The position numbers and the translations under genes were made by a program. Shown piece by piece: positions 1-36,709 of a DNA stretch of 36,709 nucleotides. Within the stretch, counting starts at the first letter, position 1, and every line of letters starts with the position of its first letter. Source of the stretch: Candidatus Levyibacteriota bacterium (lineage in GTDB: Bacteria > Patescibacteriota > Microgenomatia > Levybacterales > UBA12049). A model generated the notes under the pieces. The model was given only the letters and a program-made list of their open reading frames with translations, made no database searches and was not told the origin of the DNA. The stretch is taken from NCBI GenBank assembly GCA_016217835.1, contig JACRFQ010000017.1, positions 1 to 36,709 of the forward strand. Reading direction: 5' to 3'.

Positions 1-428
1 GAGCCATTAAAAAGAAATAACATTATGCTTAAAATGCCTATTGTTTTAGATTTAAAAATTTCTTTTGAAAATAAATAAATCATTAAAATAAGAAATGAAA
101 ATCCCAAAGCCGATGGGACATTCAATGCATAATCAATTCTTAATCCCATTTTTTCAAACATGCCAACAATTGCATAAAAAAGAAAATGATATCTAATGGG
201 GGGGCCTGAGAAAAGCGGAAATTGGGGCGGGTAATTGTTACCAAAAGAAAAAGATCTAATTAATGGAATATGATTTGCAAAATCACTCCAGGCCTTTGAA
301 GCAATCATCATTGTTCCATCTTGATATGAAAATGTAGCAAACATTAACCACGATGAAAAAATAAAGGCAAAAATAAATATAAATATTTCAATCTTAAATT
401 TTTTTAAAAAGAGGATTATTTTATGCAT
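1..428 (-). CDS. Polytopic membrane protein, N-terminal part (possible membrane glycosyltransferase/DUF2298-like); C-terminus outside window
   Basis: Open minus frame from ATG at 428: MHKIILFLKKFKIEIFIFIFAFIFSSWLMFATFSYQDGTMMIASKAWSDFANHIPLIRSFSFGNNYPPQFPLFSGPPIRYHFLFYAIVG..., hydrophobic and open to the window edge. Not in the supplied ORF track because it is partial. Confidence 0.7.
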   Translation of the reverse strand, partial: MHKIILFLKKFKIEIFIFIFAFIFSSWLMFATFSYQDGTMMIASKAWSDFANHIPLIRSFSFGNNYPPQFPLFSGPPIRYHFLFYAIVGMFEKMGLRIDYALNVPSALGFSFLILMIYLFSKEIFKSKTIGILSIMLFLFNG

Positions 429-1712
429 TTATTTTATTATTAATTTTGCGACTTTATTCCCTAATTCTACTGCATAATTGGTACCCCTGTCCCATGGGTA
501 AACTTGTTCTATATTTGCAAGATAAACATTATTTAAAGGTGTTATAAAAGGAGGAAGTATTTTTGAATAATTAACAGGAATTATTGGTTGGGCAAAAGGC
601 GCTTTAAAAAGTTCATAGTTAATAATTGATTTTTTATATTCTGGATTTATTTTTTTAAGATATGGATCAATTTTTTTTAGCATTTGTTTCTTTGTCATTT
701 TAAAATAATCATCGTCTATCGATTTGTAGTTTCCAAGATACACAAGGTGTTCATTGTTATAATTTTTTTTATCCATAAAATTTGTATGTTCAACAATTGC
801 CATAACCGGAGCATTTTTGTCGCATACGCTTAACCAATACGTACTGTCGTTAAAAAAGGGTTTATTAAGTCTCAAAATCAAGTTAGTAGCGCCTAGACTT
901 TTTAATTTGCCTAAAGCTTCTTTATATTCGCGTGGAAGACCGGTCGCAATTTTTAAAAAAAGAAAAGAAGGAATCGTAACGATAATTGCATCAAAATTTT
1001 CAATTTTCAATTTTGAATTCCCAACACGCCTGAATTTTATTTGGGGTTTTTCTTTTGAAGAAAGCTCAGGTATTTCTGTATTAAAATATATTTTTCCTCC
1101 AAGCTTTTCAATTTCTTCAACGAGCCCAGTCGCAAAATTTAAAAATCCTCCTTTGGGGTAAGCGAGACTTGGAGTTCTTTTTTTGATTCTTGCCCAAAAC
1201 CAGGCAAGAGAGACGTCATCTGCAAAAGAACCAAATTTGTTTATAAAAAGAGGTTTCCAAATCATTTCGTATGATTTTTTCCCCATAAATTTTGGTAACA
1301 TCACAGAAGCTTTATATTTCTCAAGAGGCTTCCAAAAAGGATCGTATTTTAAAAGGCCAATAACAGTACTCATTTTTAACCGTTCAAAGAAAGATAATAA
1401 AGGAAATCTTAAAACGGTTGTTGGAGAATCCAATTGATAGATATTGTTCTTTATAAAGACAGAGGTTTTTGGTCTATTAATAATAATTTCATAATTTATT
1501 TCTTTTGCCAGATTTAAAATACTATTATCATTCGTAAACCAATGGTGATAGTGCTTTTCCAAAGACCATTCCCATCCACGTCCTTGATACCCGATTGCAA
1601 GCCCGCCGGGTTTTAAATCTTTTTCAAATACAGATACATCATGATTTTTTTTCACTAATTCAAAGGCAGCGGAAAGACCAGTGAACCCTGCGCCAATTAT
1701 TGCAATTTTCAT
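429..1712 (-). CDS. FAD/NAD(P)-dependent oxidoreductase (amine oxidase/protoporphyrinogen-oxidase-like)
   Basis: Rossmann motif MKIAIIGAGFTGLSAAFELVKKNHDVSVFEKD at the N-terminus; start placed at this Met rather than the upstream one in the ORF track (1736). Confidence 0.85.
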   Translation of the reverse strand: MKIAIIGAGFTGLSAAFELVKKNHDVSVFEKDLKPGGLAIGYQGRGWEWSLEKHYHHWFTNDNSILNLAKEINYEIIINRPKTSVFIKNNIYQLDSPTTVLRFPLLSFFERLKMSTVIGLLKYDPFWKPLEKYKASVMLPKFMGKKSYEMIWKPLFINKFGSFADDVSLAWFWARIKKRTPSLAYPKGGFLNFATGLVEEIEKLGGKIYFNTEIPELSSKEKPQIKFRRVGNSKLKIENFDAIIVTIPSFLFLKIATGLPREYKEALGKLKSLGATNLILRLNKPFFNDSTYWLSVCDKNAPVMAIVEHTNFMDKKNYNNEHLVYLGNYKSIDDDYFKMTKKQMLKKIDPYLKKINPEYKKSIINYELFKAPFAQPIIPVNYSKILPPFITPLNNVYLANIEQVYPWDRGTNYAVELGNKVAKLIIK

Positions 1713-1716
1713 AGAT

Positions 1717-3114
1717 TTAAATTGTCCTGCGGGCAAGTAGGAAAAGAAGGCCTCCCATTAAACTTAGAATAATACCCACAACGCCAAGTATTATCATAGA
1801 AGGATTTCCAGTTGGAGGCAATATTTGGCCAGAATAGGTTGCATACGGAGTCGGACTTAATGCTTCCGTGGGGATAGGAGTTGTGATTAAGGAGGAAAGA
1901 ATAGTTGGAGTCGGAGTTGGGGTAGCTTTAACAGTTGGCGTGGGAGTAAGAGTTGCCGTAGGTTTTGGTGAAGGTGTTGGTGTGGGGGATCCTGTTGCGT
2001 TTTGAATTTGTGTTCCCGAAGCGTAAACCACAAAGGATTGAGTTATCGTTTTTAGTATGCCGGATATATCTCTTGTCGTAATCGTTATCGTATGCGTTCC
2101 CGGGGTTAGAGGTTCTGATGGTTTATAGCTCCAATTCCCATTTTTATCTGTTACTACTTTAGTTTGAATTGTTTGATCTGAGTGTATGACTATTTGAACA
2201 TTTTCACCCGGTTTAGCTGTGCCCTTAAATAAAGGTTGGGTATCGGTGAGTCCTTGATTTTTTGTTGGTGTTAATATTTGGATTTTTTTTGTTTGCGTTG
2301 CTGAAGACGTACTTTCAAGAGAAGGAAAGTCTTGTAGGTCTGCCGAGGCACTTGCGATAGAAGATGCTTTAATTAAAAAATTATAATCTTTAGAAAGAGT
2401 TATTAAGGGAACAGGATTGATTTGTGTTTTGGATAAGGTAATGTTTGATGTTAATAAGTCGCCATAAGCAAGCATTTTTATAACAGAATTTTGGTTAAAA
2501 TTATAATAAGATGAAAGATTGCCGGTTCTTGTTATTTTTAAAGGTATTTCGTACGATCCGTCGGTTTTAGTAAGTGCCGAAAGAACCTGAGAGTTATCAG
2601 AGGTAACATAAATTATTGCTTCCGAAGGGGAACTACCAGTAGGGAGAAGAATCTTTCCTTTGATCGTGTCGGATTCTGTGGGGGATTCAGGAATAGAAAT
2701 GCCTGTGGCGATCTCAAAGGGCTTACCATTATTATAATATGTATTTTGACCGCTAATTATTGCAAAATAATACTTTGTTGCAGGCAGTAAATTATTGACG
2801 GTAATACTATGAACTTGATAATGTGTAAGTTTTTCGGATCCCAAGCTTCTTTCATCAAAAGCAGATTTACCTAAGGAGTTATTTTCTCCATAACTTACGG
2901 AACCGGAAATTTTTTCATTGGTCGAATAGGAAACAGAAAAAGACGTATCGGTAACATTGGTTATTCTTACATTTTGAGGTTGTTCGGATGAGACAGCATT
3001 TGTCCGAAGAAGAGTTTTGTTATTTGTTAAAAAAGTTGTTGTTCCAACTCCTAAAATAAGAATCAGTAATCCCAAGAGAGTCGGTATTCTTTTATCCCAG
3101 AAACTTCTTTTCAT
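1717..3114 (-). CDS. Surface protein: N-terminal TM, fibronectin-III-like and Ig-like domains, Thr/Pro-rich stalk, LPPTG-like motif plus C-terminal TM and RR tail
   Basis: PTPTPSPKPTATLTPTPT stalk; ...ILPPTGNPSMIILGVVGIILSLMGGLLFLLARRTI end; Fn3-like N-terminal segment. Confidence 0.75.
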   Translation of the reverse strand: MKRSFWDKRIPTLLGLLILILGVGTTTFLTNNKTLLRTNAVSSEQPQNVRITNVTDTSFSVSYSTNEKISGSVSYGENNSLGKSAFDERSLGSEKLTHYQVHSITVNNLLPATKYYFAIISGQNTYYNNGKPFEIATGISIPESPTESDTIKGKILLPTGSSPSEAIIYVTSDNSQVLSALTKTDGSYEIPLKITRTGNLSSYYNFNQNSVIKMLAYGDLLTSNITLSKTQINPVPLITLSKDYNFLIKASSIASASADLQDFPSLESTSSATQTKKIQILTPTKNQGLTDTQPLFKGTAKPGENVQIVIHSDQTIQTKVVTDKNGNWSYKPSEPLTPGTHTITITTRDISGILKTITQSFVVYASGTQIQNATGSPTPTPSPKPTATLTPTPTVKATPTPTPTILSSLITTPIPTEALSPTPYATYSGQILPPTGNPSMIILGVVGIILSLMGGLLFLLARRTI

Positions 3115-35386: not shown

Positions 35387-36133
35387 ATGATAGAACGAGG
35401 AATTATGGAAGCACTTCACAGTGCAAAACCCGGTTCAAGCCAAGAACTTCATGGAGAAGCTTTAAAAGCAATGCTTGAGGCTGCTAAAGCAAGTGGTTTT
35501 AGAGATCCCGTACTTCCAACAATTCCTGTTACTTCTGAAACCCCACACGTAGAATCTTTAAGTGGCGAAGCGCTTCAAGCGGAATTAGAAGCGCAGGCTA
35601 AGAGATATATTGAATTTGGTTTTGCAAAAAAGCTTGGGATGACTCAGTATAGATTTAAAGATAGAGTAATGGGCTTAGCTGCTCCACAGCCGGAAAGCTA
35701 TAAAGGCAGATTTGATATTCCAGTAGTAGTTATCGGTGCCCAAGTTCCGGCAGTAGAGCAATATAGGATGATTGGTTTTGATTATTATTTAAGTGACTTG
35801 GGAATTCAAGATAGAGATGTAAAAGGATATCAAACTCCCAATGTTCCCCATTTAGTTTGGATGCAAGACGGAAAAGTAAATCTTGGTAAATCTGTTGACA
35901 AAGTAAGAGCTTCTTTTAGTAGAGATGAAAGAGGAGCAAATCTATATGATGGAGTAGGGCTTGTTGTAGCCCGTCCCGATATATTAAAAGATCATTTCAT
36001 TGATCTTCCTGGTACGCAGGTTGGGTCTGGCAGCGCTCCATTTCTGAATTTGTGGGATGACAGACCGGAGGTGCACTGTGGCTTTGTCGACGATACGCAT
36101 TCGAGGTTTGGTTCTGCCTCTGGCGGGAGATAA
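35387..36133 (+). CDS. DGR variable (target) protein; possible DUF5701-like scaffold
   Basis: C-terminus VGSGSAPFLNLWDDRPEVHCGFVDDTHSRFGSASGGR lies in a repeat that differs from a nearby template only at template adenines. True start may be ATG at 35405, preceded by GAGG. Confidence 0.9.
   Translation: MIERGIMEALHSAKPGSSQELHGEALKAMLEAAKASGFRDPVLPTIPVTSETPHVESLSGEALQAELEAQAKRYIEFGFAKKLGMTQYRFKDRVMGLAAPQPESYKGRFDIPVVVIGAQVPAVEQYRMIGFDYYLSDLGIQDRDVKGYQTPNVPHLVWMQDGKVNLGKSVDKVRASFSRDERGANLYDGVGLVVARPDILKDHFIDLPGTQVGSGSAPFLNLWDDRPEVHCGFVDDTHSRFGSASGGR
36020..36125 (+). repeat. DGR variable repeat (VR)
   Basis: 106 nt aligned without gaps to 36432..36537 (offset 412): 92 identical, 14 differences, all at TR adenines. 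Confidence 0.96.
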
Positions 36134-36431
36134 TTTAAATTTGGTTTTTGAATCTTTCCCCTTTTTGTCTTCTTGAATTTTGGTACGTTTTTATTTACAA
36201 TAAAGCTTGAGAGTAGGTTAATGAATTCCAAACTAAGGTTTGAAATCGCCGAAATCTTCCAAAACTTAATCCATCAGAATTTTTGTAAGTTAAGGCTTAC
36301 CAAAAGAGAATGGTCATCTTTGGGAAACTCCGTGTTTTTCTCTTTCCTCCGGTTTAAACGGAGAAATAAAATACAACAGCAAGAGTTATCAAGCTGTGGT
36401 GGGGGTCTTTGTACGGAGAAAAATATAATAA

Positions 36432-36537
36432 GTTGAGTCTGACAACGCTCCATATCTGAATTTGTGGAATGACAGACCGAAGGTGAACTATAACTTTATC
36501 GACAATACGAATTCGAAGTTTGGTTCTGCCTCTGGCG
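36432..36537 (+). repeat. DGR template repeat (TR)
   Basis: 29 adenines, 14 substituted in VR (11 to G, 2 to C, 1 to T); 77 non-adenines all conserved. Confidence 0.96.
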
Positions 36538-36545
36538 ATAGTATC

Positions 36546-36709
36546 TCAAAGATTTTTAAGATAGCGAATCCAGCCTCCAGCCATCTTACCGATTTCCTGG
36601 AGGCTTTCGGAAAGCTTTAGATAGCTTTTGTTATCAATGCAATTGTTGTCCCTAGCAAGTCTTAATAATATCTTTTCGAGATCAATTTTTGCGTTAACTA
36701 TTATTAATA
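36546..36709 (-). CDS. avd: Avd-like DGR accessory / four-helix-bundle protein, C-terminal part; N-terminus outside window
   Basis: Minus frame ending at 36546: LIIVNAKIDLEKILLRLARDNNCIDNKSYLKLSESLQEIGKMAGGWIRYLKNL*; resembles the C-terminus of Avd/23S-IVP four-helix bundle proteins. Not in ORF track. Confidence 0.8.
   Translation of the reverse strand, partial: LIIVNAKIDLEKILLRLARDNNCIDNKSYLKLSESLQEIGKMAGGWIRYLKNL

Follow-up and report, generated by a model that had tools for sequence, protein, structure and literature searches.

In the diversity-generating retroelement (DGR) of Bordetella phage BPP-1 (mtd, avd, TR, brt), avd lies in the sense orientation upstream of the template repeat (TR) and a structured spacer is found 3' of TR; an adenine of this spacer primes the cDNA within IMH* (PMC12875486). 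DGR clade 2 is restricted to Patescibacteria, and DGRs of the CPR were already known (Roux et al., 2021; PMC8144416). Cassettes have been classed by TR, variable repeat (VR) and reverse transcriptase (RT) only (PMC6642488).

The locus described here lies at the right end of the window (the whole stretch of DNA that was analysed, 36 709 nt), which is one whole contig of a 0.71-Mb MAG (89.9% complete) from a Levybacteria-related Patescibacteria genome. It has in common with the BPP-1 DGR the adenine-specific transfer from TR to VR, a homologous Avd and, in complete relatives, a homologous RT. As in BPP-1, the target gene carries VR at its 3' end, the repeats are bordered by IMH and IMH*, and a stretch of RNA is complementary to the 3' end of TR. 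Unlike in BPP-1, avd is antisense in the window and its relatives and stands between TR and RT in complete cassettes, and the structured RNA precedes TR. A Patescibacteria host, a CPR-type RT in the relatives and a target without a recognized domain are shared with DGR clade 2, the description of which mentions neither avd nor its orientation (PMC8144416). In retrons (msr-msd), too, the template is preceded by a structured RNA that a long-range helix connects to the template 3' end, which resembles the arrangement predicted here; the RT of the relatives and the genetic effect are of the DGR type, unlike those of retrons.

Repeat pair and target protein

The elements of the cassette in the window were assigned as follows.
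35387..36133, + strand: variable protein (VP) gene, 248 aa, with VR in its last codons (homologues in the order; AlphaFold pLDDT 88)
36018..36125, + strand: VR (ungapped alignment to TR)
36126..36131, + strand: VR 3' border (IMH), GGAGAT; 5/6 bases complementary to leader element Y, TR at the same place 3/6
36430..36537, + strand: TR (ungapped alignment to VR)
36546..36707, - strand: avd, C-terminal ~53 aa, truncated by the contig end (Avd profile match)

The original prediction had aligned VR (36020..36125) and TR (36432..36537) without gaps, and all 14 differences that it listed were recovered at the same coordinates, each at one of 29 TR adenines and none at C, G or T. Its 13 amino-acid changes without a stop codon were reproduced on re-derivation, the AAY (Asn) codons that it had pointed out in the template number seven, and VR is in frame in the last codons of the open reading frame 35387-36133, in keeping with the proposed position at the 3' end of a gene. 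The pair is longer by two bases on the 5' side, which adds one A>G change (36431); the extended pair thus contains 15 differences (12 A>G, two A>C and one A>T), and 15/15 fall on the 31 adenines of the template (P = 3.4e-10 if differences were placed at random). The codon following the repeat (36125-36127) changes from GAT to GGG, in part by T>G, and represents the IMH/IMH* border. The coding capacity of TR is about 10^16.6 protein variants, and the codons able to mutate to a stop are limited to one AGA and two AAG. When the same search was applied to relatives, adenine-specific pairs were found beside DGR-type RTs and almost nowhere else.

VP gave no matches to Pfam, NCBIfam or PHROG, a sequence search of phages and IMG/VR returned none, and a profile search of the PDB yielded nothing convincing. 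The AlphaFold model (pLDDT 88) resembled solved structures weakly in Foldseek (best E 0.05 for 8oks, the rest 0.4 or worse); most of the low-ranked matches were C-type lectins, the usual target fold of DGRs. Some VP homologues in the order have no DGR beside them, and one of these adjoins an RT remnant of 44 aa and lacks a TR (L016, G068:C33, 3573-4492); this region is a probable decayed DGR.

Contig end, avd and reverse transcriptase

The contig ends at 36709, 172 bp past TR and inside the antisense avd gene. The minus strand of the last 160 bases encodes the C-terminus of Avd (PF22296 positions 61-106, E = 1.4e-7), a match that falls under the Pfam cut-off because the gene is truncated. A recurrent TAGTNTCT motif was noted at TR ends bordering antisense avd, for example at 36538-36547 in the window. 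An RVT_1 profile search over all contigs of the MAG gave no match, and the RT therefore lies in an assembly gap or is absent. A second Avd-like match in the MAG (G000:C4:73-390, L003) was weak and had no DGR around it; it was set aside as an apparent four-helix-bundle protein of the 23S-IVP/Avd superfamily that is not DGR-associated.

A complete homologous cassette (VP-TR-avd-RT, with avd antisense and RT adjoining) is present in a genome of the same family, G059. Its Avd homologue passes both the Pfam cut-off and the NCBIfam DivGenRetAVD cut-off. Assignment of its RT as a retron-type enzyme was rejected, as the retron models scored far below their own cut-offs. A profile built from 15 RTs of such cassettes had the BPP-1 DGR RT as its best solved relative (8ub7, E = 1e-59). 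In the G059 region L017 (2636-9528) the DGR sits between a glycosyltransferase-like gene and genes for an FAD oxidoreductase and an Fn3-like protein. Genes similar to these neighbours are adjacent to each other without a DGR at the left end of the window (3-3114); the cassettes thus occupy different places.

The adenine-only repeat pair, the antisense avd remnant and the complete homologous cassettes together make the identification of the locus as a DGR, as originally predicted, near certain. The canonical layout that had been expected was replaced by an antisense avd and a structured RNA 5' of TR. Taken alone, the DGR of the window is an ordinary, incomplete member of its kind.

Cassette layout in relatives

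VP homologues were sought in 82 genomes of the order and found in ten, with a matching TR additionally in G059. VR, TR, avd and RT were annotated automatically in the order and in 22 regions from other families of the class, and the recurring order was VP-VR, ~300 nt, TR, avd on the opposite strand and RT. An RT alignment was then used as the query to retrieve the best 80 loci from GTDB genomes and the best 80 from IMG/VR. Among the genome loci in which avd was found, it was antisense to RT in 75/75, a set chosen by similarity to the RT type of the window relatives that carries no information on other bacterial DGRs; avd was placed between TR and RT in 58/61 of the antisense-avd genome loci that have TR. 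The IMG/VR loci with avd (n = 77) had it in the sense orientation in 68 and antisense in nine. In the RT tree every sense-avd locus fell on one side of a single fully supported branch. The window and its relatives do not have the BPP-1-type cassette order, avd being antisense and downstream of TR.

Several individual loci depart from this pattern. Leader and TR are jointly inverted relative to the RT/avd block in L058 (G031:C5, 640-2349) and L141 (VMGD01000002.1, 4263-4515), from which it follows that leader and TR behave and move as one unit. In L118 (G180:C26, 3275-4345) avd is missing and only 43 nt separate TR from the start of RT, the sole such complete case in the class set. L113, L115 and L126 contain leader, TR and VR, and no RT was found near any of the three; an RT may act from elsewhere or may have been lost recently. 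Some contigs called viral in IMG/VR (L207-L216 and L285) carry a Patescibacteria-type RT, with avd antisense wherever found, and may come from viruses that infect Patescibacteria or from host DNA that was wrongly called viral.

Leader RNA 5' of TR

The interval between VP and TR is poorly conserved in sequence and folds alike among relatives. Three features were delineated in it.
36173..36201, + strand: candidate promoter of leader and TR (TTGAAT, 17 bp, TACAAT); suggestive, regular in position alone
36209..36331, + strand: upstream leader, two further hairpins plus a linker, with conserved AGTAGGTTAATGAA and CAGA...GAG elements (individual folds)
36332..36426, + strand: core leader RNA, comprising a 12-bp closing helix, a hairpin, the AUAAAAUACA motif and a second hairpin (covariation, model matches)

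The score of the promoter site did not exceed that of shuffled sequences (42/100), the same applied in most loci, and only the position was similar across loci. The interval was also considered as coding sequence (an 87-aa open reading frame at 36173-36436) and rejected, the frames not being conserved in relatives as judged by eye.

The core leader is ~95 nt long and its closing helix directly abuts TR. When the complete leader was aligned with MAFFT, RNAalifold gave no consensus because the hairpins were misaligned, and a core-trimmed alignment was used instead. In a MAFFT alignment of five sequences, 19/29 pairs of the core showed double-sided changes, a number reached by 0/500 shuffles; with 37 sequences, the alignment of which was fitted to the covariance model itself, 27/29 pairs covaried (289 double-sided cells vs 88 after shuffling). 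The covariance model matched upstream of TR in loci outside the training set and gave matches in 27/384 genomes of the class. The leader was directly 5' of TR in 20/20 of the opened regions from outside the order that hold a TR/VR pair. A wider model matched 46/84 loci of this RT type (E < 0.05) and 1/69 other viral loci, the one match (L218) carrying this RT type; the covariance-model search did not find the leader RNA in phage-type loci.

The RT-associated RNA RT-16 (Rfam RF03019) matched the window leader at 36297-36433 over its full length and with the same AUAAAAUACA motif, at a sub-threshold 37.3 bits (gathering score 50). Matches to RT-16 occupy the corresponding position beside TR in five loci, with scores of 32-37 bits, and no locus reached the gathering threshold (50 bits). 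The window leader is related or analogous to RT-16 and is not a member by Rfam's rule.

Complementarity of the leader linker to TR and VR

The linker immediately 5' of the core helix shows complementarity to the junction at the 3' end of TR and contains a two-part element, X and Y.
36316..36325, + strand: element X (ATCTTTGGGA), complementary to the TR 3' flank
36326..36331, + strand: element Y (AACTCC), complementary to the VR 3' end; the window is a weak case of the general rule
36544..36553, + strand: TR 3' flank (TCTCAAAGAT), which pairs with X and overlaps the avd stop codon (RNAduplex -15.7 kcal/mol)

In the window the linker AUCUUUGGGAAACU (36316-36329) forms 13/14 pairs with AGUAUCUCAAAGAU (36540-36553). 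The corresponding stretches are CUAGACACUACG against GGUAGUGUCUAG in one clade and CAAGACACUCC against GGUAGUGUCUUG in another. RNAduplex values for linker and TR junction were -14.4 for cognate and -10.0 for swapped combinations, and 0/5000 permutations were as strong.

The two parts were scored separately in 70 loci. X fitted the TR 3' flank with a cognate score of 6.07 vs 5.12 (0/3000 permutations), and Y fitted the VR 3' end with 5.10 vs 4.01 (0/3000 permutations); Y gave no signal against the TR 3' end (4.00 vs 3.90, 545/3000 permutations). Within the same locus Y fitted VR better in 51 loci and TR better in eight. With Y anchored at the core helix, the score with VR was 5.11 vs 3.57 over 30 distinct heptamers, the best of 5000 permutations being 4.17, and VR won by 41 to 11 when the registers were optimized separately for VR and TR. 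The VR-complementarity signal was confined to leader positions -30..+15. Related loci are not independent and these tests control for relatedness only in part; when cognate partners were compared with those of the three nearest relatives, Y won by 134 to 50 and X by 117 to 52. In many loci Y has some complementarity to TR as well, and in the window its match to VR is modest (5/6 bases; anchored 7-mer score 3). Other leader windows showed a small TR-flank signal, which is probably owing to base composition.

As a control, the same complementarity scan was run over 56 phage-type DGRs. Complementarity to the TR 3' end was found there only at spacer positions +35..+80 (0/1000), in agreement with the priming of BPP-1 cDNA by a spacer adenine (PMC12875486), and no Y-like match to VR was found in the spacers of these 56 elements. 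The Patescibacteria loci had no TR-end complement at 3' positions +35..+80; their signal sits in the 5' leader instead. Because the 3' signal is absent and the 5' signal present, the anchor and primer function would appear to have been transferred from a spacer after TR to the leader before it.

Proposed mechanism and alternatives

From the sequence comparisons we infer a guide and primer mechanism, together with the transcript and its ends, the priming site, the leader-protein contacts and the targeting. Leader and TR would form one transcript, in which pairing of X with the TR flank would fasten the 3' end of TR to the leader; this helix is likened to the 3' spacer of phage BPP-1 and to the a1/a2 stem of retrons. 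RT-Avd would bind the leader and begin to reverse-transcribe TR at its 3' end, making errors at adenines, with priming probably from or beside Y. Y, lying beside the 5' end of the new cDNA, would then pair with IMH at the end of VP. Since Y pairs with IMH and mismatches IMH*, the mutated cDNA is proposed to enter VP instead of returning to TR. About 20 codons of the VP C-terminus, which is probably a binding surface, would be changed at random in this way.

This explanation as a whole, a Patescibacteria (CPR)-type DGR truncated by the contig end and including the leader, X and Y, is considered probable. An ordinary BPP-1-like DGR, in which the RNA that recruits or primes the RT is 3' of TR and runs into antisense avd, the 5' RNA is regulatory and X and Y reflect ancestry and composition, is considered unlikely. 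Such a reading is compatible with an RT and an Avd homologous to those of BPP-1, with transcripts that could extend into antisense avd and with a hairpin in antisense avd at some loci. However, this hairpin is in slight excess and is not general (stem score of at least 6 in 8/63), the 3' end of avd follows within tens of bases after TR, the TR-end complement of phage-type DGRs at +35..+80 is missing here, and the X and Y signals beat all permutations, with VR preferred over TR in the same locus. Intrinsic terminators were found after TR in 10/37 loci, and in several cases they fell within the avd LQEIGKMLGGW motif.

The locus could also be a decayed, inactive DGR that has lost its RT and of which no more than the two repeats and part of avd are left, an explanation that we regard as less likely again. 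The lack of an RVT_1 match in the MAG, the TR/VR pairs without a nearby RT in L113, L115 and L126 and the RT remnant beside the VP homologue of G068 speak in its favour. The avd frame nevertheless stays open as far as the contig reaches, which leaves the loss a supposition; moreover, the incomplete MAG is broken exactly at this point, and the lack of any non-adenine difference between VR and TR argues for recent copying. Chance, or ordinary gene duplication with an A-to-G bias, could account for 12/15 changes being A>G, but it is hard to credit in view of the probability of adenine-only differences (P = 3e-10), the A>C and A>T changes among them, the adjoining avd and the homologous cassettes that bear the same signature.

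Implications

The preferred explanation of the window leads to a broader proposal for Patescibacterial DGRs, for which the chances are judged to be about even: a 5' leader would serve as scaffold and primer in place of a 3' spacer, and a guide in this leader would match IMH and mismatch IMH*, giving an RNA-based rule for target and template. No earlier statement of a VR-matched guide was found in the openly accessible literature. The antisense-avd layout and the link between RT-16 and DGRs, for which no prior report was found in the same literature, may have been described before.

The X/Y rule bears on two open questions, the priming of DGR cDNA in systems other than BPP-1 and the means by which a DGR alters VR while leaving TR intact, and makes both testable by sequence. 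A leader stretch matched to VR, and not to the template, could explain how the target gene is discriminated from the element's own template. Y predicts the end of each target and could help in the search for targets at a distance. Since Patescibacteria often carry DGRs, the layout may be among the most widespread DGR forms; the template RNA would be a compact leader-TR unit and not a piece of an avd-TR-RT operon.
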